From NCBI GenBank assembly GCA_002068935.1, contig MWBF01000006.1, positions 1-35,696 on the forward strand: a stretch of 35,696 nucleotides of DNA. Direction: 5' to 3'. How positions within the stretch are numbered: position 1 is the stretch's first letter; each line of letters begins with the position of its first letter. Both the position numbers and the translations under genes were made by a program. Source of the stretch: Chloroflexi bacterium ADurb.Bin325 (lineage in GTDB: Bacteria; Chloroflexota; Anaerolineae; CG2-30-64-16). Below, one piece after another: positions 2 to 33,328 of this stretch. The notes under the pieces are model-generated. The model was not told where the DNA came from and searched no databases. It was given only the letters and a program-made list of their open reading frames with translations.

Positions 2-1564
2 GTGCCGGCCGGCTGGCGGGGCGAGCGCATCTTCCTGCGCGTGGGCTCCGCCGTCTATCTTGCGACGGTTTATGTCAATGGGCAGAAGGTCGGCGTCCAC
101 GAGGGCGGCCACCTGCCCTTTGCGTTCGAGATCTCCGACCACATCCGGTGGGGCGAGGAGAACGTCATCGCCATCAGCGTCGAGAACGAGCTCAAGCCGA
201 GCCGTGTGCCGTCGGGCAACATGCCCCGCGGCACGGGCATGGACCTGGCCGTAACCACCCCGCGCACGACATACGATTTCTACCCCTTTTGCGGCATCCA
301 CCGGCCGGTTGTGTTATACTCCGTGCCGCAGACCTGCATCGAGGACGTGACCGTCGTCACCACCATCGATGACGCGACCGGGATCGTGCAGGTGACGGCC
401 CGGCTGAACAGCGCGGTCGCTGCGCCGGGCGCGGTCGAGCTGCGCGGCGACGCCGCGGTGCAGGACGCGGAGCTGGCCTTTGTCGACGGCGTCGCCAGCG
501 CCGAGCTGCGCGTCCCCGCGGCGCGTCTCTGGTCCGACCGCGACCCGTATCTCTACGACCTGACCGTCAGGGCTGCCGGCGACGAGTACAGCCTCAAGGT
601 CGGCATCCGCACCATTGCCGTGGAGGGCCCGCACATCCTGCTTAACGGCCAGCCCGTCAAGCTGAACGGCTTCGGCCGGCACGAAGATTTCCCGGCCAGC
701 GGCAAGGGCCTGAACCTGCCCTTGATCGTCAAGGACTATCAGTTGATGCGCTGGACCGGCGCCAACGCCTATCGCACCTCGCACTACCCGTACAGCGAGG
801 AGGAGATGCAGATGGCGGATCGCGAGGGGTTCCTCATCATCGACGAGATCCCCGCGGTCAGCCTCCAGATGAGCGACGAGGCCAACTTCCCCGAACGGCT
901 GCGCATGTGCTTGCAGCAGATCGAGGAGCTGATCGCGCGCGACAAGAACCATCCGTCCGTGGTCATGTGGTGCGTGGCGAACGAGCCCATGCCGGCCGGC
1001 CTCAACATCGGCGCGGCGGGCGCGGTCGGATCCGAGATCGAGGAGCGCAACCGGCCGGGCAAGCAGTTCCTGGATACGGAGATCGCGCACGCTCGCGCGC
1101 TCGACCCGACCCGGCCCGTGACCATCGCGACCATCATGGGCGGCCCGCAGAACTGGGTAGAGCAGTGCGACGTCATCTGCATGAACCGCTACTGGGGCTG
1201 GTATGCGCTCGGCGGCCAGTTGGACGTTGCCCGGAAGAGCCTCGAAGCGGAGCTCGACCAGACCTGGCATCGGTGGCAGAAGCCGATCATCATGACCGAG
1301 TTCGGCGCGGACACCATCCCCGGCTATCACGGCCATCCGAGCGTCATGTGGACCGAGGAGTATCAGGCCGATTACCTCCGCTTCCACCTCGAGGTGGCCG
1401 CGGAGCGCGAGTTTGTCGCGGGGATGCAGGTCTGGAACTTTGCTGATTTCGCCGCCGTGCAGAGCATCATGCGCGTGGGCGGCGTCAACCATAAGGGCGT
1501 CTTCACGCGCACGCGCACGCCCAAGATGGCCGCGCACGTGCTGCGGGAATTTTGGGCCAGATAG
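2..1564 (+). CDS. uidA: Beta-glucuronidase (GH2), 5'-truncated by window edge
   Basis: This retaining glycoside hydrolase would release D-glucuronate from beta-glucuronides. About 520 residues are visible, and roughly 85 N-terminal residues of the sugar-binding domain lie upstream of the window, so the GTG at 2 is not the real start. The order is the end of the jelly-roll domain, an immunoglobulin-like domain (about 110-205) and a TIM barrel. The acid/base Glu is E328 in VANEP and the nucleophile is E433 in MTEFGAD. The N-H-K at 496-498, followed by GVFTRTRTPK, matches the NxK motif that binds the glucuronate carboxylate in beta-glucuronidases and is absent from beta-galactosidases of the family. 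That makes the substrate call firm. No signal peptide can be judged. The uronate isomerase gene starts 22 bp downstream and handles the product. Confidence 0.93.
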   Translation: MPAGWRGERIFLRVGSAVYLATVYVNGQKVGVHEGGHLPFAFEISDHIRWGEENVIAISVENELKPSRVPSGNMPRGTGMDLAVTTPRTTYDFYPFCGIHRPVVLYSVPQTCIEDVTVVTTIDDATGIVQVTARLNSAVAAPGAVELRGDAAVQDAELAFVDGVASAELRVPAARLWSDRDPYLYDLTVRAAGDEYSLKVGIRTIAVEGPHILLNGQPVKLNGFGRHEDFPASGKGLNLPLIVKDYQLMRWTGANAYRTSHYPYSEEEMQMADREGFLIIDEIPAVSLQMSDEANFPERLRMCLQQIEELIARDKNHPSVVMWCVANEPMPAGLNIGAAGAVGSEIEERNRPGKQFLDTEIAHARALDPTRPVTIATIMGGPQNWVEQCDVICMNRYWGWYALGGQLDVARKSLEAELDQTWHRWQKPIIMTEFGADTIPGYHGHPSVMWTEEYQADYLRFHLEVAAEREFVAGMQVWNFADFAAVQSIMRVGGVNHKGVFTRTRTPKMAAHVLREFWAR

Positions 1565-1586: not shown

Positions 1587-3014
1587 ATGTCTGAACCGTT
1601 GTTGTCTCCGGATCGCTTTTTCGCGCCCGAGCCCGCGCAGCGCCGCATCGCGCGCGAGCTCTACGAGGGCATCGCCGACCTGCCCATCGTCAGCCCGCAC
1701 GGCCATGTCGATCCCGCGCTGCTGGCCGACGAGGACGCGACCTTCGGCACGCCCGCCGACCTGTTCATCATCCCCGACCACTATGTGTTCCGCATGCTCT
1801 ACTCCCAGGGCGTTTCGCTGGAGTCGCTCGGCATCCCCAGGCGGCCCGATGCGCCCGCGGGACCGGCCAGCGAGACGGATCATCGGAAGATCTGGCAGGT
1901 CTTCGCCGACCACTTCTACCTCTTCCGCGGCACGCCCAGCGGCGTCTGGCTGGCGCACGAGCTGTACGAGGTGTTCGGCATCCGGCAGAAGCTGACGGCC
2001 GCAACCGCGCAGGCCATCTACGACGAGCTGGCCGACAAACTGGCGCAGCCGGCCTTTTCTCCCCGCGCGCTGTTCGACCGCTTCAAGATCGAGGTGCTCT
2101 GCACGACCGACGGCCCGGCCGACTCGCTGGCCCAGCATCGGCGCATCCGTGAGTCGGGCTGGCCGGGCGTCGTCCGGCCGACCTTCCGGCCCGACGCCGT
2201 GACCAACCTCAGCCTGCCCGCCTGGAAGGCGAACATCGAGGCGCTGGGCGCGGTCGTCGGCCGGGAGATCACCACGGCCCGCGGCCTCGTCGCCGCGCTG
2301 GAGGAGCGCCGGGCCTTCTTCAAGAGCATGGGCGCGACCTCCACCGACAGCGGCGTGGAGACGCCCTACACCGAGACCCTGTCCGAGCACGACGCGGAGG
2401 CCATCTTTGCGCGGGCGCGGGCCGGCAAGGCCACGCCGGACGATGTGCGGCGCTTCACGGGCCACATGCTCCTCGAGATGGCGCGCATGAGCGTCGAGGA
2501 CGGGCTGGTGATGCAGCTCCACGCGGGCTGCGACCGCAACCACAACCCGCTCATCCAGGCGACGTTCGGCCCGGACAAGGGCGCGGACATCCCGATCGCG
2601 ATCGAGTGGGTGCGCAGCCTCAAGCCGCTGACCGACCGCTTCGGCAACGACCCGCGGCTGACGCTGGTGCTCTTCACGCTGGACGAGACCGGCTATGCGC
2701 GCGAGATGGCGCCGCTGGCCGGCCACTATCCGGCGCTCAGGCTCGGCCCGCCCTGGTGGTTCCACGACAGCATCAACGGCCTGGCCCGCTACTTCGACCA
2801 GGTGATGGAGACGGCCGGCCTCTACAACACCGCCGGCTTCATCGACGACACGCGCGCCTTCGTCTCGATCCCGGCGCGACACGATGTCTGGCGGCGGACG
2901 TCGGCCAACTGGCTGGCCGGGCTGGTCGTGCGCGGCATGATCGACATGGCCGAGGCGGTCGAGATGGCCGCTGACATGGCGACCGGCCTGGCGCGCCGGA
3001 CCTTCAAGCTCTAG
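1587..3014 (+). CDS. uxaC: Uronate (glucuronate) isomerase
   Basis: This enzyme interconverts D-glucuronate and D-fructuronate, or galacturonate and tagaturonate, as the first cytosolic step of uronate breakdown. It has 475 residues, the usual length of the family (about 470). It belongs to the amidohydrolase superfamily: the metal-binding H-G-H is at residues 38-40 (SPHGHVDP), and the conserved segment IPDHYVFRMLYSQG follows. A CTTDGPADSLAQH block corresponds to the conserved T-D-D/G-P region of UxaC. The ATG at 1587 is preceded by GGGAGGAG at 1577-1584, so the longer upstream open frame from 1413, which runs through the end of uidA, is not used. The gene follows beta-glucuronidase by 22 bp, which fits a glucuronide-utilisation operon. 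Confidence 0.92.
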   Translation: MSEPLLSPDRFFAPEPAQRRIARELYEGIADLPIVSPHGHVDPALLADEDATFGTPADLFIIPDHYVFRMLYSQGVSLESLGIPRRPDAPAGPASETDHRKIWQVFADHFYLFRGTPSGVWLAHELYEVFGIRQKLTAATAQAIYDELADKLAQPAFSPRALFDRFKIEVLCTTDGPADSLAQHRRIRESGWPGVVRPTFRPDAVTNLSLPAWKANIEALGAVVGREITTARGLVAALEERRAFFKSMGATSTDSGVETPYTETLSEHDAEAIFARARAGKATPDDVRRFTGHMLLEMARMSVEDGLVMQLHAGCDRNHNPLIQATFGPDKGADIPIAIEWVRSLKPLTDRFGNDPRLTLVLFTLDETGYAREMAPLAGHYPALRLGPPWWFHDSINGLARYFDQVMETAGLYNTAGFIDDTRAFVSIPARHDVWRRTSANWLAGLVVRGMIDMAEAVEMAADMATGLARRTFKL

Positions 3015-3050: not shown

Positions 3051-4331
3051 ATGGTTATCGCTCAAGCTAGCGCGCAACAGGCCGCCTCGCAGGACGGCCT
3101 CCTGACGCGCGACCGGATCAGGGAGACCCTTGTTCGGGGGTTGGGCGGCAAGCTGGCCGGGCAGAAGGTGCTCGTGCTCATCCCCGACCACACCCGCTCG
3201 CTGCCGCTGCCCGAGCTCTTCCGCCTGGTCGTCGAGACCCTGCACGACGTGCGCGAGCTCAACGTGATGGTCGCGCTGGGCACGCACCCCGGCTACGACG
3301 AGGCCGGGCTCAACCGCCTGGTCGGCATCACCGCGGAGGAGCGCGCAACCACCTACAGACACGTCGGCCTGCTGAACCACGCCTGGAACGACCCGGCCGC
3401 CCTGGTCTCGCTGGGCCTGATGGGCAAGGACGAGATCAAGCAGCTCGCGGGGGCCAGCTACCACTTCTCGCTGCCGGACGAGATCGACATCCGCATCAAC
3501 CGGGCCGCGCTGGAGCACGACCACATCGTCATCGTCGGCCCGACCTTTCCGCACGAGGTGGTCGGCTTTTCGGGCGGCGCAAAATACCTCTTCCCCGGCA
3601 TCTCCGGGCCGGACGTCATCAACGCGACCCACTGGCTGGGCGCGCTGGCGACCGTCGTGGGCACCATCGGCGTCAAGGACACGCCGGTGCGCGCGGTCAT
3701 CCATGCGGCGGCCGCGCGGCTGAGGACGCCGACGACGCTCGTCGCCCTGATCGTGCAGGGCCGCGACCTCTCCGACATGTTCATCGGCGATATGTACGAG
3801 ACCTGGGAGGCGGCCGCGGATGTGTCCTCGGAGCGACACATCAAGTGGTGCGCGCGCCCGTACAAGCGCGTGCTGTCCACCTGCCCGCCGATGTACGACG
3901 AGCTGTGGACCGCGGGCAAGTGCATGTACAAGATGGAGCCGGTGGTGGAGGTCGGCGGCGAGCTCATCATCTATGCGCCGCACCTGGCGGTCGTCAGCCC
4001 GGTCCACGGCAAGTACATCTACGAGGCGGGCTATCACATCCTGCCCTACTTCCTCCAGGACTGGGAGCGTTACAAGCATCTGCCGTTGGGCGCGCTGGCG
4101 CACTGCACGCACGTGCGCGGCTCCGGCGTGATGGAGGACGGAGTCGAACGGCCCAACGTCCGGCTGGTGCTTGCGAGCAAGATCCCGCCCGAGGAATGCG
4201 CCCGGCTGAACCTGGGCTACATGGATCCGGCAACGATCGACCCGGCCGACTGGCAGGGCCGCGAGGACGAAGGCGTCCTCTATGTCGCCAAGGCCGGCGA
4301 AATGCTCTACAAAGTGAGGGGGAAATCATGA
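3051..4331 (+). CDS. LarA-family nickel-pincer racemase/epimerase homologue
   Basis: This is a 426-residue member of the lactate racemase LarA (DUF2088) family, whose enzymes racemise or epimerise alpha-hydroxyacids using a nickel pincer nucleotide. All residues known to matter in Lactobacillus plantarum LarA have counterparts. D46 and R49 in IPDHTR match the DxTR motif, and H79 in LGTHP matches H108. H168 matches H174, K178 in SGGAKYLFPG matches the cofactor-tethering K184, H194 matches the nickel ligand H200, and K290 matches K298. The H168-K178 and K178-H194 spacings (10 and 16) equal those of LarA. The larB, larC and larE maturation genes are not in the window. AAAGGAGG at 3033-3040 supports the ATG. 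The stop overlaps the next start (ATGA). Its place between uronate isomerase and a KDG-kinase-like gene suggests a sugar-acid substrate such as gluconate or mannonate rather than lactate; this is inference. Confidence 0.85.
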   Translation: MVIAQASAQQAASQDGLLTRDRIRETLVRGLGGKLAGQKVLVLIPDHTRSLPLPELFRLVVETLHDVRELNVMVALGTHPGYDEAGLNRLVGITAEERATTYRHVGLLNHAWNDPAALVSLGLMGKDEIKQLAGASYHFSLPDEIDIRINRAALEHDHIVIVGPTFPHEVVGFSGGAKYLFPGISGPDVINATHWLGALATVVGTIGVKDTPVRAVIHAAAARLRTPTTLVALIVQGRDLSDMFIGDMYETWEAAADVSSERHIKWCARPYKRVLSTCPPMYDELWTAGKCMYKMEPVVEVGGELIIYAPHLAVVSPVHGKYIYEAGYHILPYFLQDWERYKHLPLGALAHCTHVRGSGVMEDGVERPNVRLVLASKIPPEECARLNLGYMDPATIDPADWQGREDEGVLYVAKAGEMLYKVRGKS

Positions 4332-5410
4332 AATATGGGCTGAACATCAAATCCGAGGCCGCGCTGGATTTCGTGTCGCTGGGCGCGCTCGTCCACCGGC
4401 TGGATCCGGGCGTCATCCCGTTCCGCAAGGCCACCCACTGCGACATCCACGTCAGCGGCGGCGAGTTCAACGTGGCGGCAAACCTGTCGGACTGCTTCAA
4501 TCTCAAGACGGGGATCGTGACCGCGATGGTGAACTACCCGATCGGCGCGCTGATCGCGGAGCGCGTGCGCGTGATGGGCGTCACGCCGTTCTACAAGTAC
4601 TTCGAGCACAACGGCGTCACCGGCCCGAACATGGCGACGGTCTACAGCGACCGGGGCCAGGGCGTGCGTGCGCCGGTCGTCTTCTACAACCGCTGCAACG
4701 AGGCCGCCGCGCAGCTCAAGCCGGGCGACATCGACTGGGGACACGTGTTCGCCGGCGGGGTGCGCTGGTTCCACAGCGGCGGCATCTTCGCCGCGCTCTC
4801 GGAGACGACGGGCGAACTCATCATCGAGGGGATGAAGGCCGCAAAGGCCGCGGGCGCGGTGACCTCGATCGACCTCAACTATCGCGCCAAGCTGTGGAAC
4901 ATCTGGGGCGGCCACGAGGTGGCGCTCAAGGTGCTCCGGGGCATCGTCGAGCACGTCGATGTCATCGTCGGCAACGAGGAAGATCTCCAGATGGGCCTCG
5001 GCATCCCGGGGCCGGAGGTGGCGGCCAGATCCAAGCTCGACCCGAGCGTCTTCTTCGGCATGATCGACAAGGTGACGGCGATGTACCCCAACGTCAAGAT
5101 CGTGGCGACCACGCTGCGCGAGGTTCACTCGACCAACCGGCACAGTTGGGGCGCGGTGGCCTGGATCGACGGCAAGACCTACGAATCGCACACCTGCGAG
5201 CTGGACGTGCTGGATCGCGTCGGCGGCGGCGACGGATACGCCTCAGGGTTCTTCTACGGGCTGTTGACGGGCGCGTCCGAGCAGGAGGCGGTCAACCTCG
5301 GCTGGGCGCACGGCGCGCTGCTCACCACCTTCCCCGGCGACACGACGATGGCGACCGCGGATCAGGTTCGGGCCTTTGCGCAGGGCGGCTCGGCCAGAAT
5401 ACAGCGTTAG
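4328..5410 (+). CDS. kdgK: PfkB-family sugar kinase, probably 2-keto-3-deoxygluconate kinase
   Basis: This 360-residue ribokinase/PfkB-fold kinase probably phosphorylates 2-keto-3-deoxygluconate to KDPG. The N-terminal substrate motif SGGEFNVAANL is at residues 43-53. IDLNYRAKLW at 181-190 matches the family segment that follows the substrate pocket in KDG kinases, and NEEDLQ is at 216-221. The catalytic Asp is D302 in the anion-hole motif RVGGGDGYASG. The ATG at 4328 overlaps the larA-like stop by four bases, so translation is likely coupled. Context (beta-glucuronidase and uronate isomerase upstream, mannonate dehydratase elsewhere in the window) favours KDG over fructose or ribose. A KDPG aldolase is not present nearby, and substrate specificity is not proven by sequence alone. 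Confidence 0.82.
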   Translation: MKYGLNIKSEAALDFVSLGALVHRLDPGVIPFRKATHCDIHVSGGEFNVAANLSDCFNLKTGIVTAMVNYPIGALIAERVRVMGVTPFYKYFEHNGVTGPNMATVYSDRGQGVRAPVVFYNRCNEAAAQLKPGDIDWGHVFAGGVRWFHSGGIFAALSETTGELIIEGMKAAKAAGAVTSIDLNYRAKLWNIWGGHEVALKVLRGIVEHVDVIVGNEEDLQMGLGIPGPEVAARSKLDPSVFFGMIDKVTAMYPNVKIVATTLREVHSTNRHSWGAVAWIDGKTYESHTCELDVLDRVGGGDGYASGFFYGLLTGASEQEAVNLGWAHGALLTTFPGDTTMATADQVRAFAQGGSARIQR

Positions 5411-5427: not shown

Positions 5428-6555
5428 GTGAACACGACACGGCAACTGTACGAAGTCGGCCAATCGATCTGGTATGATAATATCGAACGCCGCATGTTGA
5501 ACAACGGAGACCTGGCAGGCATGATCGCGCGCGGCGAGGTCCGCGGCGTCACATCCAACCCGACCATCTTCATGCACGCGATGACCAAGGCGCATGACTA
5601 CGATGCGAGCCTGACCGCGCTGGCGCGCGCCGGCAAGACGGCCGAGGAGATCTTCTGGGATCTGGCCATCGAGGACATCCAGACCGCGACCGACCTGTTT
5701 CGGCCCCTCTACGAGGAGAGCAAGGGCGGCGACGGCTACGTCAGCCTGGAGGTCAACCCCTATCTGGCCAACGACGCCGCGGTTACGCTGGCGGAGGTCA
5801 AGCGGCTCTGGGCGCTCGTGAACCGGCCCAACCTGATGATCAAGATCCCGGCGACGCTGGAGGCCCTGCCGGCGATCCGGGACGCGCTCGCGGCGGGCAT
5901 CAACATCAACATCACCCTCATCTTCTCCCGCGCGCGCTACTGGGCGGTCATGGAGGCCTTCCTCAGCGGCCTCGAAAGCCGGCTGGCCGCCGGTCAGCCG
6001 ATCGACACGATCGCATCGGTCGCCTCCTTCTTCGTCTCGCGCGTCGACACGAAGGTGGACGCGCGGCTCAACGAGATCATCGCCCAGGGCGGCGCGCGCG
6101 CCGAGGAGGCGACCGCAAACCTGGGCCGGGCCGCGATCGCCAACACCCGCCTGGCCTACAACGACTACAAGATCATCTTCAACTCGGAGCGCTTTGCAAA
6201 GCTCGCCGCGCACGGCGCGCGCGCCCAGCGCCCGCTGTGGGCCTCGACCAGCACCAAGAACCCGGCCTACCGCGATGTGGTCTACGTCGAGGAGCTGATC
6301 GGGCGGAACACGGTCAACACCATACCGTCCGTGACCCTGGCCGCGTTCCTGGATCATGGCGTCGTGCGCCCCGACAGCGTGGAGGAGGGCATCCCCGAGG
6401 CGTACCAAACCTTCGCCCGACTGGAGACGCTGGGCATCGTCATGTCTGACGTCACGCACGAGCTCGAGGTCGAGGGCGTCGAGACCTTTGCCGGCGCCTG
6501 GCGCACGCTCCTGGACGCGATGGAGACGAGCCGCCGGGCCGTGACCGGAGAGTGA
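5428..6555 (+). CDS. tal: Transaldolase
   Basis: Transaldolase transfers a dihydroxyacetone unit between sedoheptulose-7-phosphate and glyceraldehyde-3-phosphate in the non-oxidative pentose phosphate pathway. At 375 residues it is the longer bacterial type, as in actinobacteria and Chloroflexota. Diagnostic blocks are QSIWYDNIERR at 12-22, VTSNPTIF at 41-48 and NLMIKIPAT at 135-143, in which K139 is the Schiff-base lysine. WASTSTKNPAYRD later in the protein is also typical. The start is a GTG at 5428 with AAGGAG at 5416-5421, six bases upstream. An open frame runs in the same phase from 4894 through kdgK but is a shadow. It lies 17 bp after kdgK and just before rpiA, forming a pentose-phosphate pair inside the uronate operon. 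Confidence 0.94.
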   Translation: MNTTRQLYEVGQSIWYDNIERRMLNNGDLAGMIARGEVRGVTSNPTIFMHAMTKAHDYDASLTALARAGKTAEEIFWDLAIEDIQTATDLFRPLYEESKGGDGYVSLEVNPYLANDAAVTLAEVKRLWALVNRPNLMIKIPATLEALPAIRDALAAGININITLIFSRARYWAVMEAFLSGLESRLAAGQPIDTIASVASFFVSRVDTKVDARLNEIIAQGGARAEEATANLGRAAIANTRLAYNDYKIIFNSERFAKLAAHGARAQRPLWASTSTKNPAYRDVVYVEELIGRNTVNTIPSVTLAAFLDHGVVRPDSVEEGIPEAYQTFARLETLGIVMSDVTHELEVEGVETFAGAWRTLLDAMETSRRAVTGE

Positions 6556-6560
6556 GGCCC

Positions 6561-7286
6561 ATGGGCGGCGCCCCCCAACAGTCCTTGAAGCAGCAGGCCG
6601 CAGACCAGGTGCTCACCTATATCCGGCCCGGCATGATCGTCGGGCTTGGCGCGGGCAGCACCGCGCTGCTGGCAGTCCGCGGCCTGGCGGCCCGGCTCGC
6701 GCGCGGCGAGCTGGCCGACATCAAGGGGATCCCCTGCTCGCGCGCGATCGAGGCCGAGGCGCGCGCGCTGGGCATCCCGCTCACCACGCTGGAAGAGGAG
6801 CAGGCCGACGCCGACGGCCGTGTCATCGACTTCACCTTCGACGGCGCGGACGAGGTGGACCCGGCCCTCAACCTGATCAAGGGCGGGGGCGGCGCGCTGC
6901 TGCACGAGAAGATCGTGGCGCAGGCCAGCCGCCGCGAGGTCATCATCGTGGACGAGTCCAAGCTGTCGCCGACGCTGGGCGTCCGCTGGGCCGTGCCGGT
7001 CGAGGTCGTCCCGTTCGGCTGGCGCACGCAGGCCGCCTATCTGGAGTCGCTCGGCGGCCGGCCGCGCCTGCGGCCCGGCGACGATGGCCGGCCGTACGTG
7101 ACCGACCAGGGGAACTTGATCCTCGACAGCGCGTTCGGGCCGATCGATGACCCGGCGCGGCTGGCCGCGCGGCTGGACGCCCGGACCGGCATCGTCTGTC
7201 ATGGGCTGTTTCTGCAACTGGCCGATGAGGTGATCGTCGCCGGGGCCGCGGGGCTCCGCCGGCTGACCCGGCCGGACAGGCCATAG
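6561..7286 (+). CDS. rpiA: Ribose-5-phosphate isomerase A
   Basis: RpiA interconverts ribulose-5-phosphate and ribose-5-phosphate in the cytosol. The protein has 241 residues from the ATG at 6561. The phosphate-binding VGLGAGST is at 27-34, DGADEVD at 94-100 and KGGGGALLHEKI at 107-118, with E116 matching the catalytic Glu of the family. The start is ambiguous: an in-frame GTG at 6552 overlaps the transaldolase stop (GTGA), while the ATG at 6561 sits 10 bases after GGAG at 6547-6550 and gives the usual short lead before ALKQQAA-like sequence. I prefer the ATG. The tight junction with tal indicates co-transcription and probably coupled translation. Confidence 0.94.
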   Translation: MGGAPQQSLKQQAADQVLTYIRPGMIVGLGAGSTALLAVRGLAARLARGELADIKGIPCSRAIEAEARALGIPLTTLEEEQADADGRVIDFTFDGADEVDPALNLIKGGGGALLHEKIVAQASRREVIIVDESKLSPTLGVRWAVPVEVVPFGWRTQAAYLESLGGRPRLRPGDDGRPYVTDQGNLILDSAFGPIDDPARLAARLDARTGIVCHGLFLQLADEVIVAGAAGLRRLTRPDRP

Positions 7287-7316
7287 GCAATCTTCTTGAT
7301 TCGAAGGAGCGAGGCG

Positions 7317-8546
7317 ATGGGCAAGATCGACAAGGTTGCGTTCTTTACCAACGAATACCCGCCGTATGTCTATGGCGGCGCCGGCGTCGTCGTCGAGTAT
7401 CTGAGCCGGGAGCTGATCGAAAAGGTGCCGCTGGAGATCCGCTGCTTCGGCGACCAGGATCTGCAACTGCCCAACCTGACCGTCAAGGGCTACGGCCCGT
7501 GGCCCGAGGCCAGGCAGAACACCGATCCGCGCTTCGGCGGCGCGCTCGACGCGCTGCACCGCAGCCTGGCGATGGCGAAGGACCGGCTCGACGCCGACAT
7601 CGTGCACGCCCATACCTGGTACGTGCAGTTCGCCGGCTTTCTCGCAAAGAAGCTGTGGGATGTCCCGTTCGTGCTGACCACGCACTCGCTGGAGCCGCTC
7701 CGGCCCTGGAAGGTGGAGCAGCTCGGCAACGCCTATCACCTGAGCGCGTGGATCGAGGACAACGGCATCACGCAGGCGGACGCGGTCATCGCGGTCTCGC
7801 AGGGGACGCGCGACGACATCCTGAACTACTTCGACGTCGACCCCGACCGGGTCAAGGTCATCTACAACGGCATCGACCTGAACCAGTATCGCCACACCGA
7901 CGAGGTCGATGCGCTGGTGAAATACGGCGTCGATCCCGCGCGGCCCTATGTGCTGTTCGTCGGCCGCGTCACGCGGCAGAAGGGCATCATCCACCTGGTG
8001 AACGCCATCCCGTACATCGACCCGTCCATCCAGGTCGTGCTGTGCGCGGGCGCGCCCGACACCCCGGCCATCGGCCAGGAGATGCAGGAGCGCGTGGCCG
8101 AGGTCAGCGCGGGCCGGCCGGGCGTCATCTGGATCCGCGAGATGCTGCCGAAGGAGCAGGTGATCCAGTACTACTCCAACGCGGCCGTGTTCTGCTGTCC
8201 CTCGGTGTATGAGCCGTTCGGCATCATCAACCTCGAGGCGATGGCGTGCGAGACCGCGGTCGTCGCCTCGGCCATCGGCGGCATCCCCGAGGTGGTGGTG
8301 CCGCCGGGCCGGGCCGGGCTCGACCCGACGGGCGAGCTGATCCCGCTGGAGCTGGAGCCGGGCACCTTCAACCCGGTCGATCCGGCAAGGTTCTCCCGCG
8401 AGCTGGCCGAGGCCATCAACGCGGTCGCGCTGAACCCGACGCTGCGCCGGACATACGAGCGCAACGGGCGCAAGCGCGTCGAGGAACACTTCAGTTGGAG
8501 CGTGATCGCGCAGCAGACGCTCGAACTATACGAATCTCTGGTATAA
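7317..8546 (+). CDS. Glycosyltransferase family 4, glycogen-synthase-like
   Basis: This 409-residue GT-B fold enzyme most resembles the actinobacterial-type glycogen synthase/GlgM group of GT4, which uses ADP-glucose to build glycogen or maltose-1-phosphate. The N-terminal [18 protein letters not shown] contains the nucleotide-sugar glycine loop. [12 protein letters not shown] segment lies in the acceptor domain. The C-terminal domain has VGRVTRQKG and then [16 protein letters not shown], the E-x7-E retaining-GT motif, followed by [11 protein letters not shown]. The ATG at 7317 follows AAGGAGCGAGG; an upstream in-frame TTG at 7296 lacks support. It lies 30 bp after rpiA and 26 bp before pgi. 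With Pgi and Pgm downstream, a role in glycogen synthesis is likely, but no glgC is present and another glucosyltransferase role is possible. Confidence 0.82.
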
Positions 8547-11957: not shown

Positions 11958-13220
11958 TCACCGTTGCGCCGGCCCATCCCCCCGCCGGAGCTCCTCCATC
12001 AGTTGCCAGCACACCAGCTCCATGCGCGGCACGTGGAACGCGCCCTTGTACGTGTTGCCCTTGATGGTCGAGGAGAGCCGGCCGTCGCGGTGCAGATAGC
12101 CGAACCATTCGCCATGCTCGCGGTCGGGGAAGCGGGCGTAGGCCCAGTCGTGGATCATGCGGTGCCAGCGCGCGTATCTCGCCTCCCCCGTCAGACGGTA
12201 GGCCATCAGCGTCGCGATGATGGCCTCGTTCTGCGGCCACCAGAACTTCATGTCGTGCCAGTATTCCTGCACGGGCAGCCCGCGCACGTCCACGAAATAG
12301 GTGATGCCCCCGTGCTCCCGATCCCAGCCGCGCGGCCACATCCAGTCCAGGATGGTCAGGCCCATCTGTAGCAGCCCGGCGTCGTTGCCGCGCTCGCGCG
12401 CCTCCTGCATAATGAACCAGGCCGCCTCGATGGCGTGGCCGGGGTTCAGCGTCCGGCCGTCGAAGTGATCCAGGAACTCGCCGTCCGCGCCGACGGTCTC
12501 CAGCACGGCCGCCAGCTCCGGGTGCATGTGATAGCGCCGGATCTCGTCGACATAGCGGTCGATCGCGGCGTTGCAGAAGGCGCGGCGCTCCGCATCCGGC
12601 TCCGCCGACCGGCTGGCAGGCCCCAACGCCCGGCGCAAGATCTGCGCGGTGACGAGCATGATCATCGGCGTCGCGAGGCCGCGCATCGGCCGGGTCTGCG
12701 CGTCCCATTTGGGCGGGAGGACGCCGGGCGTGTCCAGATAGCCCTGCACGCGGCGATACAGCTCGAACGCCTGCTCGACCGCGGCCGCATCGCCGGCCGC
12801 GCGGCCGTACGCGGCGAGGCCCGCGATCATGAATGCCTCGCTGAAGACGTAGCGACGCTTGCGCAGCGGCCGCCCCTGCCGATCCACCAGGAAGAACATG
12901 CGGCCATCCGCGTCGAAGCCGTGCTGTCGCAGAAAGTCAAGGCCGTGCCGCGCCCACCGGAGCCACTCCAGCCGCGGGGCCGCCTCCGCATAGAGGGTCG
13001 CCAACAGCCAGACGGCCCGCCCTTGCAGCCAGATGGCCTTGTCGGTGTCCAGGAGCGCGCCGTCCCGGTCGCGCGAGAACAGGAAGCCGCCGTATTCCTC
13101 GTCGATGCAGCGCGGGAACCAGAACGGCAGCGTGCTGTCGAGCAGGCCGTCGCGGTAGGTCACCAGCAGGCTGTCGATGCGCCCTGGCGTCATCAGGTTT
13201 TCACTGGGTTCATCTGTCAT
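11958..13220 (-). CDS. N-acylglucosamine 2-epimerase (AGE family)
   Basis: This 420-residue (alpha/alpha)6-barrel enzyme probably interconverts N-acetylmannosamine and N-acetylglucosamine. The family's conserved blocks are present: RYVFSEAFMIAGLAAYG, NPGHAIEAAWF, WWPQNEAI and, near the C-terminus, EWFGYLHRDG then KGAFHVPRMEL. The last pair closely follows the mammalian renin-binding protein/AGE pattern (WFGYLNREG, KGCFHVPR), which favours AGE over cellobiose 2-epimerase. The ATG at 13218-13220 has GGGAGGG upstream on this strand; an in-frame upstream start at 13262 has no such support. The neighbouring N-acetylneuraminate-lyase-like gene, 87 bp upstream, points to sialic-acid catabolism. An alternative is a mannose or cellobiose epimerase. 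Confidence 0.85.
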   Translation of the reverse strand: MTDEPSENLMTPGRIDSLLVTYRDGLLDSTLPFWFPRCIDEEYGGFLFSRDRDGALLDTDKAIWLQGRAVWLLATLYAEAAPRLEWLRWARHGLDFLRQHGFDADGRMFFLVDRQGRPLRKRRYVFSEAFMIAGLAAYGRAAGDAAAVEQAFELYRRVQGYLDTPGVLPPKWDAQTRPMRGLATPMIMLVTAQILRRALGPASRSAEPDAERRAFCNAAIDRYVDEIRRYHMHPELAAVLETVGADGEFLDHFDGRTLNPGHAIEAAWFIMQEARERGNDAGLLQMGLTILDWMWPRGWDREHGGITYFVDVRGLPVQEYWHDMKFWWPQNEAIIATLMAYRLTGEARYARWHRMIHDWAYARFPDREHGEWFGYLHRDGRLSSTIKGNTYKGAFHVPRMELVCWQLMEELRRGDGPAQR

Positions 13221-13307: not shown

Positions 13308-14198
13308 TTACAGCGCGGCGAGCTCGGCAAAGCCGGCCTCGTGCAGCCCGGCGCGCAGCGCGGCAAGCTGCGCCTCCGCCGCGGGCACGTTGGGCAGCCG
13401 CGGCCGGCCGCAGTCGAACCCCAGCACGCGCAGCGCCTCGCGGAGCGCGGCCGCGAAGCCCATGTCGAGCAGCAGGCCGGTGACGCGGTTGGCGCGCTGC
13501 TGCAAATCGAGCGCACGCGGCGCGTCGCCGGCGGCCAGGCTCGCATAGATCTCCCGATAGACGCCGGGCATGATGTTGAGGGTGGAGCCGATGCAGCCGG
13601 CCGCGCCGTACATCCGCGCCAGCGCGGCCTGCTCGTCCATCCCGGAGAAGACGGTCCAACCGTTCGACCTGAACCGGACGAGCTGGTTCATCTCGTACAT
13701 GTTCGGCCCGGTATACTTCGTGCCCGCCAGGTTGGGGATGTGGCCCAGGTCGCGCATCAGCGCGGCCGCGTCGCGGGAGGAGCCGAAGAGGTAGGATAGG
13801 AAGGGCAGCTCCGCCGCGGCCGCCGCAATCGCCTCGAAGAAGGGTACGATCCCGTGAGCATCGTACAGCACCGGCGGCAGGATGCTGCTGACGCCCGCCG
13901 CGCCCGCGGACCGGGCGTGCTCGGCCAGCCGCCGGGCATCCTTGAGCGCCGCGGCCCCCACATGCACGATCACGGGCACGCGGCCCGCAACCTGATCCAG
14001 CACGGTCTCCGTCACCAGGATGCGCTCCTGCACGGTCTGGAGCGGGCCTTCGCCCGTGCTGCCGCAGACATAGAACCCGCTGACGCCCCTGGCCAGCAGA
14101 TGATCGACAAGCGCGCGCAGGACCTCGACGTTGACATCATCCTGCGGCGTGTACGGCGTCAGCAGGGCCGGCCAGCAGCCCTCGAATGTGCGCATCAT
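13308..14198 (-). CDS. DapA/NanA-family aldolase, probably N-acetylneuraminate lyase
   Basis: This 296-residue TIM-barrel class I aldolase probably cleaves N-acetylneuraminate to N-acetylmannosamine and pyruvate. The pyruvate carboxylate motif is CGSTGEG (residues 45-51); GSTGE is usual for the lyase, whereas dihydrodipicolinate synthase has GTTGE. The Schiff-base lysine is K161 in AGTKYTGPNMYEM and the active-site Tyr is Y136 in FLSYLFG. GGGGAGGA precedes the tandem ATG ATG start. It shares a strand and likely a transcript with the AGE gene, giving the two-step route from Neu5Ac to GlcNAc known in bacteria that use AGE in place of NanE. The KDG/KDPG-type aldolases of this family are an alternative, and one would complete the uronate pathway seen here. 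Confidence 0.75.
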   Translation of the reverse strand: MMRTFEGCWPALLTPYTPQDDVNVEVLRALVDHLLARGVSGFYVCGSTGEGPLQTVQERILVTETVLDQVAGRVPVIVHVGAAALKDARRLAEHARSAGAAGVSSILPPVLYDAHGIVPFFEAIAAAAAELPFLSYLFGSSRDAAALMRDLGHIPNLAGTKYTGPNMYEMNQLVRFRSNGWTVFSGMDEQAALARMYGAAGCIGSTLNIMPGVYREIYASLAAGDAPRALDLQQRANRVTGLLLDMGFAAALREALRVLGFDCGRPRLPNVPAAEAQLAALRAGLHEAGFAELAAL

Positions 14199-17245: not shown

Positions 17246-18123
17246 CGACTTATGTCACCCCCGCCTCGGTAGAGGCCGCGCTCGCGCTCCTGGACGAACA
17301 CCGCGGCCGCGCGCGCATCATCGCCGGCGGCACCGACCTCCTGCCGGACATGCGTTCCGGCAAGCGCACGCCGGCCTGCCTGGTGGACATCACGGGCATC
17401 CCCGGGCTGCGCGAGATCCGCGTGGCCGCGGGGCATGTCGAGGTCGGCGCGTGCGTCACCTTTGCGGAGCTGCGCGACCATCCGTTCATCCGCCAGCACA
17501 TCCACGCGCTGGCCGAGGCCGCGGCGTCGGTCGGCGTGGCCGCGATCCAGAACGCGGCGACCTGGGCCGGCAACCTCGTCCAGGCCATGCCCGCGGCCGA
17601 CGGGGCCATCGTAGCGCTCGCGCTGGAGGCCGAGGCGCGCATCGTGGATCTGTCCGGCGAGACATGGCAGCCCGTCGCGAGCCTCTTCGCCGGCCCGGGC
17701 CGCTCGACCGTCGACCCCACGCGCCAGCTCATCACGCACATCCGCTTCCCGCGGCCCGCGGCCGCCTGGGGCACGGCCTGGCAGCGCGCCGGCCGCCGCC
17801 CGTCGCTGATCCTGCCCACCATCAACTGCGCGGCCCGGCTGATCCTGGCCGCGGACGGCGGCATCGCGGCCGCGACGATCGCGCTGGGGCCGGTCGCGGC
17901 GACGCCCTTCCGCGCGGCGCGCGCCGAGGCCTTCCTGCACGCCGCGCGGCCGGCGCCCGCAACCTGGGCCGAGGCTGCGCGCCTTGCGCAGGAAGAGGCG
18001 CAGCCGCGCAGCAACCCGCTGCGCGCCTCGCGCGCATACCGGTCGGCCATCATCCCCGCGCTCGTGGAGAGCGCCCTGGCGACGGCCTACGGCCGCGCAA
18101 CAGAGAAGGAGAGCCCATGCTGA
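17242..18123 (+). CDS. FAD-binding subunit of molybdenum hydroxylase
   Basis: This 293-residue protein of the CoxM/XdhB family carries electrons from the iron-sulfur clusters to the acceptor through FAD. The flavin-binding motif AGGTDLLPDMRSG is near residues 29-41, and the second motif, ATWAGNLVQAMPAAD, is around 109-123; it resembles the usual T-x-GGN-x-SPAD loop but is altered. A C-terminal CO-dehydrogenase-flavoprotein-like domain follows. The start ATG overlaps the stop of the fused hydroxylase gene by four bases and the stop overlaps the next start by seven, so the three genes are translationally coupled. The expected heteromer is a two-chain enzyme with a fused Fe-S/Mo chain. Confidence 0.86.
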   Translation: MTTYVTPASVEAALALLDEHRGRARIIAGGTDLLPDMRSGKRTPACLVDITGIPGLREIRVAAGHVEVGACVTFAELRDHPFIRQHIHALAEAAASVGVAAIQNAATWAGNLVQAMPAADGAIVALALEAEARIVDLSGETWQPVASLFAGPGRSTVDPTRQLITHIRFPRPAAAWGTAWQRAGRRPSLILPTINCAARLILAADGGIAAATIALGPVAATPFRAARAEAFLHAARPAPATWAEAARLAQEEAQPRSNPLRASRAYRSAIIPALVESALATAYGRATEKESPC

Positions 18124-19262
18124 ACTCAACCGGCCTCGAGAAACGCCGGGAGCCGCCGGCGCAGCCCGCGCACGAGGTTGCGCCCAGGATCCTGAACCTG
18201 CCGGAGATGGTCGCGGCCCTATCCGATGAGGATCAGGAGCGCTTCGACCGTATCTTCTCCGTCAGCGAGGTGTCCGGCGCGCTGGCAGCGCCCGAGGCCA
18301 TGCACGACTGGATCCGGGGCTACTTCGGCTCGGTCGAGGCCGTCGCCAACCAGCAGATCATCAAGGTCACGAACCGCGTCAGTTGGGAGGGCGCGCTCTA
18401 CAACGAGCTGCGCGCACGGCGTCCGCTGGAGGTGCGCGGGACCGCCGACCTCGACCGCGTCATCGCGGAGACGCGCAACGACCCCTTCTGCCACCCGCTG
18501 GACGGCACGCCCGCCGACACCTTCGGCCGGGTGCAGGGGAAGCACTCCATCACGGCCAGCAATGTCGCCAAGTATGACGGCTCGCACGGCATCGTTATCT
18601 TCGACGAGCATCACCCGCTGGCCCTCACGCGCGAGCGGGTGCGCGACTACATCGACACGGCCTGGAAATGGGGCCAGAAGGCGCACGCGGCCGACCCGTC
18701 GGCCAGCTACTTCTTCTTTATGTGGAACTGCGTCTGGAAGGCCGCGGCCTCGCTCGTCCACGGCCATACGCAGATGACCCTCACGCGCGACATGCACTAT
18801 TCCAAGGTGGAGTTTCTGCGCCGCCAGGCCGCGGCCTACTGCGCGCAGTACGCCGCCAACTACTTCGACGACCTGCACGCGGTCCACCGCGCCCTCCAGC
18901 TCGGGTTCGCCTGGCGGAACGTGAGCGTGGCCGTCTCGCTGACGCCGGTCAAGGAGCGCGAGACGCTGCTGATAGCGTCGAGCCTGAACGATAACCTCAA
19001 GGACGCCATCTTCACGGTGCTCGACACCTTCGTGAAGCAGTTCGGCGTCACCAGCTTCAACGTCGCGATCCAGATGCCGCCCATCGGGCCCGCGGCCGAG
19101 GATTGGAGCGGCTTTCCCGTCCTGGCCCGGATCGTGGATCGCGGCGACCCGATGAACCGCACGGGCGACATCGGCGCGATGGAGCTTTACGCGGCCAGCG
19201 TCATCGGCACCGACCCGTTCTTCGTGGCCGAGGCGCTCGACGCCGCCTTCCAGGAGGCATGA
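18117..19262 (+). CDS. GalT-like (HIT superfamily) protein of unknown substrate
   Basis: This 381-residue protein resembles galactose-1-phosphate uridylyltransferase. Residues 211-220 read ASLVHGHTQM: H215-G-H217-T-Q219 matches the HPHxQ active site of GalT, in which the second His forms the uridylyl intermediate, and the preceding N204 and A-S-L also match the family block. The canonical Pro is replaced by Gly. No CxxC zinc site is seen in the N-terminal part. AAGGAG at 18106-18111 supports the ATG, which overlaps the FAD subunit stop. No galactokinase or epimerase is nearby, and GalT is not a usual partner of molybdenum hydroxylases, so the reaction is uncertain. Another nucleotidyl- or phosphoribosyl-sugar transfer is possible. 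Confidence 0.7.
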   Translation: MLNSTGLEKRREPPAQPAHEVAPRILNLPEMVAALSDEDQERFDRIFSVSEVSGALAAPEAMHDWIRGYFGSVEAVANQQIIKVTNRVSWEGALYNELRARRPLEVRGTADLDRVIAETRNDPFCHPLDGTPADTFGRVQGKHSITASNVAKYDGSHGIVIFDEHHPLALTRERVRDYIDTAWKWGQKAHAADPSASYFFFMWNCVWKAAASLVHGHTQMTLTRDMHYSKVEFLRRQAAAYCAQYAANYFDDLHAVHRALQLGFAWRNVSVAVSLTPVKERETLLIASSLNDNLKDAIFTVLDTFVKQFGVTSFNVAIQMPPIGPAAEDWSGFPVLARIVDRGDPMNRTGDIGAMELYAASVIGTDPFFVAEALDAAFQEA

Positions 19263-32344: not shown

Positions 32345-33328
32345 ATGATCAAGATTGCAGAAGTATTGCCCGCCCAGCCGACCCAGTTGTGGACGCTGGC
32401 GAAACAGTGCGGCGTGGACTACGTCGTCTCCGGCATGGACTGGCGACGCGGCCTCGATGTGCCGCCGGAGGAGCTGCCCTGGAGCTATCAGTCGCTCGTC
32501 GCGCTGAAGCAGGGCTATGAAGAGGGCGGCTTCGAGCTGGCGGTCATCGAAGGCCGGCCCCCGCTCCACAAGGCCAAGCTCGGCCTGCCCGGCCGCGACG
32601 CGGAGATCGAGACGGCCATCGAGCTGATCCGCAACATGGGCCGGCTGGGCATCCCGGTCTGGTGCTACGAATGGATGCCCGTATACAACTGGATCCGCAC
32701 CGACACCGCGGTCACGACGCGCGGGGCCGCGCTGACCACGGAGTTCGATTTCGCGTTGGTGCGCGATGCGCCGCTGACCGAGTACGGCGAGGTGAGCGAG
32801 GAGCGGCTGTGGGAGAACCTTGCTTACTTCCTCGACTGCGTCATCCCGGTCGCCGAGGAGGCCGGCGTCAAGCTGGCGATGCACCCCGATGACCCGCCGC
32901 TCTCGCCCATCTACGGGCTGGGCCGCATCATGCGCAGCATCGAGAACTACCAGCGGCTCATCGACCTCCGGCCCAGCCCGGTCAACGGGATCGCGCTGTG
33001 CCAGGGCAACTTCTCGCTGATGACGCCCGACCTGCCCGCGGCCATCCGCCATTTCGGCGGCCAGGACAAGATCTTCTTCGTCCACTTCCGCGATGTGCGC
33101 GGCACGCCAGAGAAGTTCATCGAGACCTTCCACGACGACGGTCAGACCGACATGGTCGAGTGCATGCGGGCCTACCGCGATATCGGCTACGAGGGCGTGC
33201 TGCGGCCCGACCACGTGCCGACGATGGCCGGCGACACCAACGACAACCCGGCCTACTCATCCATCGGCCGCCTGTTCGCGATCGGCTACATCAAAGGGCT
33301 GCGCGAGGCGGTCTACCACGACAATTGA
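32345..33328 (+). CDS. uxuA: Mannonate dehydratase
   Basis: This 327-residue TIM-barrel enzyme dehydrates D-mannonate to 2-keto-3-deoxygluconate, the substrate expected for the KdgK-like kinase at 4328-5410. Metal-site residues typical of UxuA are present: H180 in AMHPDDPP, C219 in LCQGNF, H247 in VHFRDVRG and D289-H290 in RPDHVP. The family markers FHDDGQTDM (about 262-270) and [11 protein letters not shown] are present. It is somewhat shorter than E. coli UxuA (394). The SD AGGAG at 32327-32331 is 13 nt before the ATG, which is long but there is no better in-frame start. The stop TGA lies inside a run of GAAGATT repeats. It is transcribed separately from the main uronate operon and followed by a ThuA-like gene. 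Confidence 0.9.

Follow-up and report, generated by a model that had tools for sequence, protein, structure and literature searches.

The LarA homologue described here is encoded in a glucuronate operon of the window, a stretch of 35,696 nt. It is predicted to be a nickel-pincer-nucleotide (NPN) enzyme of the GntE type, which would invert C2 to turn D-mannonate into D-gluconate and back, and would be used to carry glucuronate towards the pentose phosphate pathway. We put the probability of this reading at roughly 0.8. Its basis is computed (the genes, their residues, a fold prediction and the conservation of the neighbourhood), and from it we infer the substrate, the direction of the reaction and the substrate of the adjoining kinase. 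The more general assignment as a C2 epimerase of a C6 aldonate such as mannonate or gluconate, rather than a lactate racemase, had been proposed in an earlier note on this DNA. As a prediction from sequence it is well supported by the signature residues, the closest structure, the presence of LarB, LarC and LarE, and the conserved neighbourhood.

The window corresponds to the whole of one contig (C6) from an assembly of 3.96 Mb in 582 contigs, about 94% complete. The closest named relatives (76% identity) come from metagenome assemblies of Chloroflexota/Anaerolineae, to which the host therefore probably belongs. The ORF is intact (426 aa), matches Pfam Lar_N (1.4e-20) and has a Shine-Dalgarno-like AGGAGG ahead of its ATG. 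UxaC ends 36 nt upstream, and the LarA stop codon TGA (4329-4331) overlaps the ATG (4328) of a PfkB-family kinase in the sequence ATGA. The gene thus lies, as had been noticed before, between a uronate isomerase and a kinase with overlapping stop and start (Table 1). Outside the operon, genes for an N-acylglucosamine 2-epimerase-like protein (11958-13193, minus strand) and a NanA-like lyase (13308-14198, minus strand) adjoin each other and are perhaps a sialic acid pair. The segment 14495-19262 encodes a molybdenum hydroxylase, made of a fused 2Fe-2S/MoCo subunit and an FAD subunit; after it comes an ORF of 381 aa (18117-19262) for which Pfam gave no match.

Table 1. Genes of the glucuronate operon and a UxuA-like gene in the window, with the basis of each assignment.
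Feature	Coordinates	Strand	Basis
Beta-glucuronidase, 5' end lost at contig end; glucuronate source	2..1564	+	best match PRK10150, 502 bits, cut-off 544 (protein truncated)
UxaC, uronate isomerase (glucuronate to fructuronate)	1602..3014	+	NF002794 515 bits, cut-off 387; start from codon model
LarA homologue, GntE-type, predicted D-mannonate/D-gluconate 2-epimerase	3051..4331	+	catalytic/NPN residues, GntE signature, nearest structure 4NAR by sequence and fold
PfkB-family kinase, candidate gluconokinase	4328..5410	+	PF00294; clade apart from KDG kinases; LarA-linked in nine dereplicated loci
Transaldolase	5428..6555	+	TIGR00876 339.5 bits, cut-off 233.75
RpiA, ribose-5-phosphate isomerase	6561..7286	+	TIGR00021 216.9 bits, cut-off 126.4
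UxuA-like, possible mannonate dehydratase, outside operon	32345..33328	+	NF003027 236.2 bits (cut-off 191); TIGR00695 uxuA 175.4, below cut-off 199.55

All seven catalytic and cofactor residues listed in the earlier note (D46, R49, H79, H168, K178, H194 and K290) are present at these positions and are invariant in 34 aligned LarA homologues. Among NCBIfam models the nearest is NF052594 (group 18, nickel-dependent putative hexonate epimerase), whose cut-off of 500 bits is not reached (137.8 bits), so that the protein falls outside that subgroup. When PDB sequences were searched, the top match was 4NAR, the GntE2 protein of Thermotoga maritima (E 8.5e-55); a lactate racemase was matched at 1.3e-7. 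A fold search with the AlphaFold2 model (pLDDT 94.4) again placed 4NAR first (E 1.5e-41, TM 0.85), with lactate and malate racemases next.

The substrate pocket points in the same direction. Pocket residues of GntE have been published as E, V, A and H (PMC11770544), and the GntE type has further been described by a W in helix 11 and an E-V/S pair in a loop (PMC7583248). The window protein carries E169, V170, A350 and H351 together with W286, a pattern kept by 117 homologues; GntE2 itself has a serine in place of the valine (S156 for V170) and is otherwise identical in the signature. For the A-H columns the alignment is sound with GntE2 but not with lactate racemases, and this part of the signature is therefore read from the GntE2 alignment. 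In a LarA tree the window protein and GntE2 stand on the same side, apart from the lactate- and malate-type paralogs, the exact place of GntE2 being unsure because of long branches.

Lactate racemisation, which the earlier note thought made little sense in this operon, finds no favour in these data. The protein does belong to the same superfamily as the racemases of lactate, malate and other hydrophobic 2-hydroxyacids, and two more LarA proteins of this sort, both full-length, are encoded in the genome, one scoring 500 bits with the lactate racemase model NF033504 (cut-off 460), the other nearest to malate racemase. The window protein, however, reaches 70 bits with the former model and 82 bits with the malate racemase model (cut-off 500). 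Moreover, the loop after the catalytic histidine reads E-V where the lactate racemase-type paralog of the same genome has F-F, and the conserved neighbourhood is one of uronate and gluconate genes. On model scores and pocket residues we reject a lactate or malate racemase, and we give next to no credence to a racemase of this general kind. Two LarA fragments also occur in the genome and may both come from a single protein of the malate type (paralogs and fragments are on contigs C2, C20, C187 and C251).

The earlier note had regarded a genome devoid of larB, larC and larE as grounds for abandoning its proposal. A profile search of the same genome found all three genes together on contig C31, above curated cut-offs in each case. 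The note had also observed that fructuronate reductase was absent from the window, leaving room for a non-standard route. Indeed, we found no gene of the UxuB type in the window, and PF01232 matched nothing in the assembly as a whole (94% complete). However, contig C57 encodes an SDR that scores 352.6 bits with the D-mannonate oxidoreductase model (cut-off 281; 5695-6528 of locus L176). The idea of a pathway gap at this step was thus discarded: the mannitol-dehydrogenase-type UxuB is missing, yet an SDR-type enzyme is there. As for a non-standard route, one through mannonate and gluconate is what we propose, but it has already been described for T. maritima (PMC7583248, PMC3750489).

Contig C57 carries, besides the SDR gene, that of 6-phosphogluconate dehydrogenase (Gnd), the two being separated by a P-type ATPase gene. 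In relatives, for instance at locus L052, the order UxaC, SDR, LarA, Gnd, P-type ATPase, transketolase, transaldolase forms a single run, and from such arrangements the present genome seems to carry a similar gene set split over two contigs. P-type cation ATPase genes recur among Gnd, SDR and LarA genes (L176, 2760-5618; also L050 and L052) with no obvious link to the pathway. A GntK-type gluconokinase was not found in the assembly, nor was an FGGY gluconokinase recognised, the three classified FGGY kinases of this genome resembling xylulokinases. We counted the joint presence of the SDR and Gnd on C57 in favour of the GntE reading; the score below the NF052594 cut-off, the location of these two genes on a different contig and the lack of a recognised GntK or FGGY gluconokinase were counted against it.

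Gene neighbourhoods were compared in 120 loci (40 from a whole-genome search, 80 from named genome contigs), which dereplication at 90% LarA identity reduced to 106. Within 6 kb of LarA, an SDR gene is present in 64 of these, Gnd in 38, UxaE in 27, GntK in 24, UxaC in 23, the PfkB clade of the window in nine, transketolase in eight, transaldolase in seven and FGGY in two; the counts are lower bounds since contig ends cut many loci. UxaE, Gnd, GntK and SDR identities were checked with family models on representatives. The gene context expected for a GntE (mannonate oxidoreductase, Gnd and gluconokinase) is seen in relatives; here the SDR and Gnd genes sit apart from the LarA operon. In L052 a 621-aa ORF directly after LarA (6531-8396) fuses a GntK-type gluconokinase to 6-phosphogluconate dehydrogenase. 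A plasmid search yielded a natural GntK-LarA fusion in Saccharobesus litoralis (L184, 5422-7191, 589 aa), annotated only as gluconokinase, whose LarA part belongs to group 18 (618.9 bits with NF052594, above the cut-off) and whose neighbours are larB, a tagaturonate epimerase family gene (UxaE) and gnd. The same search showed UxaC, gluconokinase, LarA, LarC and LarB in one cluster of Catenovulum adriaticum. Several loci without a recognised gluconokinase (L121, L130 and L140) have a phosphofructokinase-like gene (PF00365 on the L076 homologue) and a HAD-like gene after Gnd.

These neighbourhoods bear on the identity of the substrate. Group 19 of the family, found in the context of uronic acid metabolism, has been suggested to act on aldarates or uronates (PMC7583248), and UxaC and UxaE as neighbours would fit some such compounds; the 2-hydroxy acid that LarA epimerises at C2 might then be a different one derived from uronates, for instance an aldarate (such as glucarate), fructuronate itself or altronate. 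Against this, mannonate and gluconate are precisely the compounds flanked by the activities of the conserved partners (SDR-type D-mannonate oxidoreductase, Gnd and gluconokinase), and the Saccharobesus fusion joins LarA to a gluconokinase. We regard a different acid as unlikely. Still, the very high KM of GntE1 for mannonate (PMC7583248) suggests that a different compound may be the substrate of some enzymes in the wider group.

Given that the gene set includes the SDR and Gnd, the likely flow is from glucuronate through fructuronate, mannonate, gluconate and 6-phosphogluconate to the pentose phosphate pathway. Beta-glucuronidase would release glucuronate, to be isomerised to fructuronate by UxaC and reduced to mannonate by the SDR-type fructuronate reductase. 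LarA, with the NPN cofactor made by LarB, LarC and LarE, would convert mannonate to gluconate, a reaction proposed by Rodionova et al. (as cited in PMC6978723) and measured by Desguin et al. (PMC7583248). Gluconate would then be phosphorylated, possibly by the adjoining PfkB kinase, and 6-phosphogluconate decarboxylated by Gnd into the pentose phosphate pathway, to which transaldolase and RpiA in the window belong. By analogy with LarA, for which others have shown these steps, and given the conserved residues, the C2 hydride would pass to NPN with H79 and H168 as acid and base, and the 2-keto intermediate would be reduced again by the hydride returning on the other face, with inversion of C2 as the outcome.

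We also envisaged the opposite use of the enzyme, in which gluconate would be turned into mannonate to feed the UxuA-like dehydratase, whose gene lies in the same window (the earlier note did not mention it), the PfkB protein being the KDG kinase of that branch. A KDPG aldolase in the genome would agree with this scheme, as would the resemblance of the PfkB protein to KDG kinases among solved structures. However, the UxuA-like protein stays below the equivalog cut-off, no UxuA-like gene is found within 6 kb of LarA in the 106 loci, where Gnd and gluconokinase are the common neighbours instead, and the same genome has another PfkB next to a KDPG aldolase fragment (contig C332). Altogether, reverse use appears very unlikely. 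Co-occurrence is uninformative on the direction of flow, as LarA and UxuA show no clear association in 396 genomes of the class: a LarA homologue is present at E <= 1e-20 in 176 of them (the weakest may be other LarA proteins), and UxuA in 60 of 168 LarA-positive genomes versus 61 of 228 (Fisher p 0.06, relatedness ignored, a few weak LarA genomes left out).

The kinase gene overlapping LarA had been called KDG-kinase-like. Its product is a PfkB protein whose nearest solved structures are indeed KDG kinases (2afb), and it keeps the likely carboxylate-binding arginines, but it is probably not a KDG kinase and would act on another substrate. Its KDG-kinase score (123.4 bits) is far below the cut-off of 440; since PfkB proteins linked to Eda likewise miss the KDG-kinase cut-offs, the tree weighs more than the scores on this question. 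There, the clade of the window protein is split from the T. maritima KDG kinase and from KDPG-aldolase-linked PfkBs with a support of 100/100. An AlphaFold model of the kinase (pLDDT 63) was set aside.

Relatives of this PfkB, 69-88% identical, occur in nine dereplicated LarA loci: directly after LarA in L090, L091, L107 and L168, after Gnd in L057, L094, L097 and L111, and upstream on the opposite strand in L106. L168, from another phylum (Fidelibacterota), has UxaC, SDR, Gnd, LarA and the PfkB in one run, and L057 holds both this PfkB and the KDPG-aldolase-linked kind. None of the 106 loci combines a window-type PfkB with GntK or FGGY (Fisher p 0.013-0.022 for GntK, relatedness ignored). By gene position and mutual exclusion, the PfkB may be a gluconokinase. 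Its descent from a KDG-kinase-like lineage and the arginines mentioned above count against this, as do the many operon-like loci that have none of these three kinases and those that have a PfkA-type kinase near Gnd. To our knowledge, only two unrelated families of bacterial gluconokinases are known; the PfkB protein has no homology to GntK or FGGY gluconokinases and belongs by sequence to a different fold family, and the titles and abstracts searched mention no PfkB-family gluconokinase. It is conceivable, at slightly less than even odds, that this clade represents a gluconokinase of a third type not described before (or a mannonate kinase), replacing GntK and FGGY in a complete operon from glucuronate via mannonate and gluconate to the pentose phosphate pathway, common to Chloroflexota and Fidelibacterota.

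Were the PfkB a mannonate kinase acting first, LarA would epimerise 6-phosphomannonate to 6-phosphogluconate. Such a route exists as activities in Lactobacillus suebicus extracts, without assigned genes (PMC6978723), and the overlap of the kinase start with the LarA stop would suit it. Nevertheless, we hold it to be extremely unlikely, as the closest characterised relative, GntE2, uses unphosphorylated mannonate (PMC7583248) and a GntK-type gluconokinase accompanies LarA in many relatives.

In conclusion, LarA is very probably a mannonate-to-gluconate nickel epimerase in an already known pathway. Such epimerases being known from Thermotoga, it is a further member of the family and not a new kind of system. 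These results extend the NPN-dependent shortcut between mannonate and gluconate, characterised mainly in T. maritima and Corynebacterium glutamicum, to many uncultured Chloroflexota. They help to correct annotations ("lactate racemase" and, for 4NAR, "putative uronate isomerase") and draw attention to one clade of PfkB proteins whose candidacy as a new gluconokinase can be tested.

Compared with T. maritima GntE2/LarAH20 (4NAR, a D-gluconate 2-epimerase), the window protein has the same fold, the same catalytic and NPN residues and the same signature bar one residue, at about 31% identity, and Gnd, UxaE and an SDR are operon partners in common. According to PMC3750489, the T. maritima operon runs gnd-uxaR-uxaE-uxaD-gntE-gntK; its UxaD belongs to the SDRs and is active as a mannonate oxidoreductase (as cited in PMC5673643). 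T. maritima uses a gntK gene of its own; in the present genome the PfkB kinase gene overlaps that of LarA, and the SDR and Gnd genes lie on another contig. By its published description (PMC7583248), GntE1/LarAH19 of C. glutamicum is alike in the E-V loop, the helix 11 W and the uronic-acid context of group 19; the group 18 hexonate epimerases form a different subgroup. Lactate racemase 5HUQ and malate racemase 6D6Z/7S91 share the fold and the catalytic mechanism residues but differ in the pocket, with 16-18% identity over the fold alignment, and their family cut-offs are not reached. Finally, the PfkB protein and the T. maritima KDG kinase 2AFB, both of the PfkB family, share the G-G-G-D catalytic motif and the N-Y-R and Y-x-R arginines; the former reads T-V-Y-S-D where the latter has I-Y-F-L-E, and its separate clade is linked with LarA and Gnd, not with UxuA.
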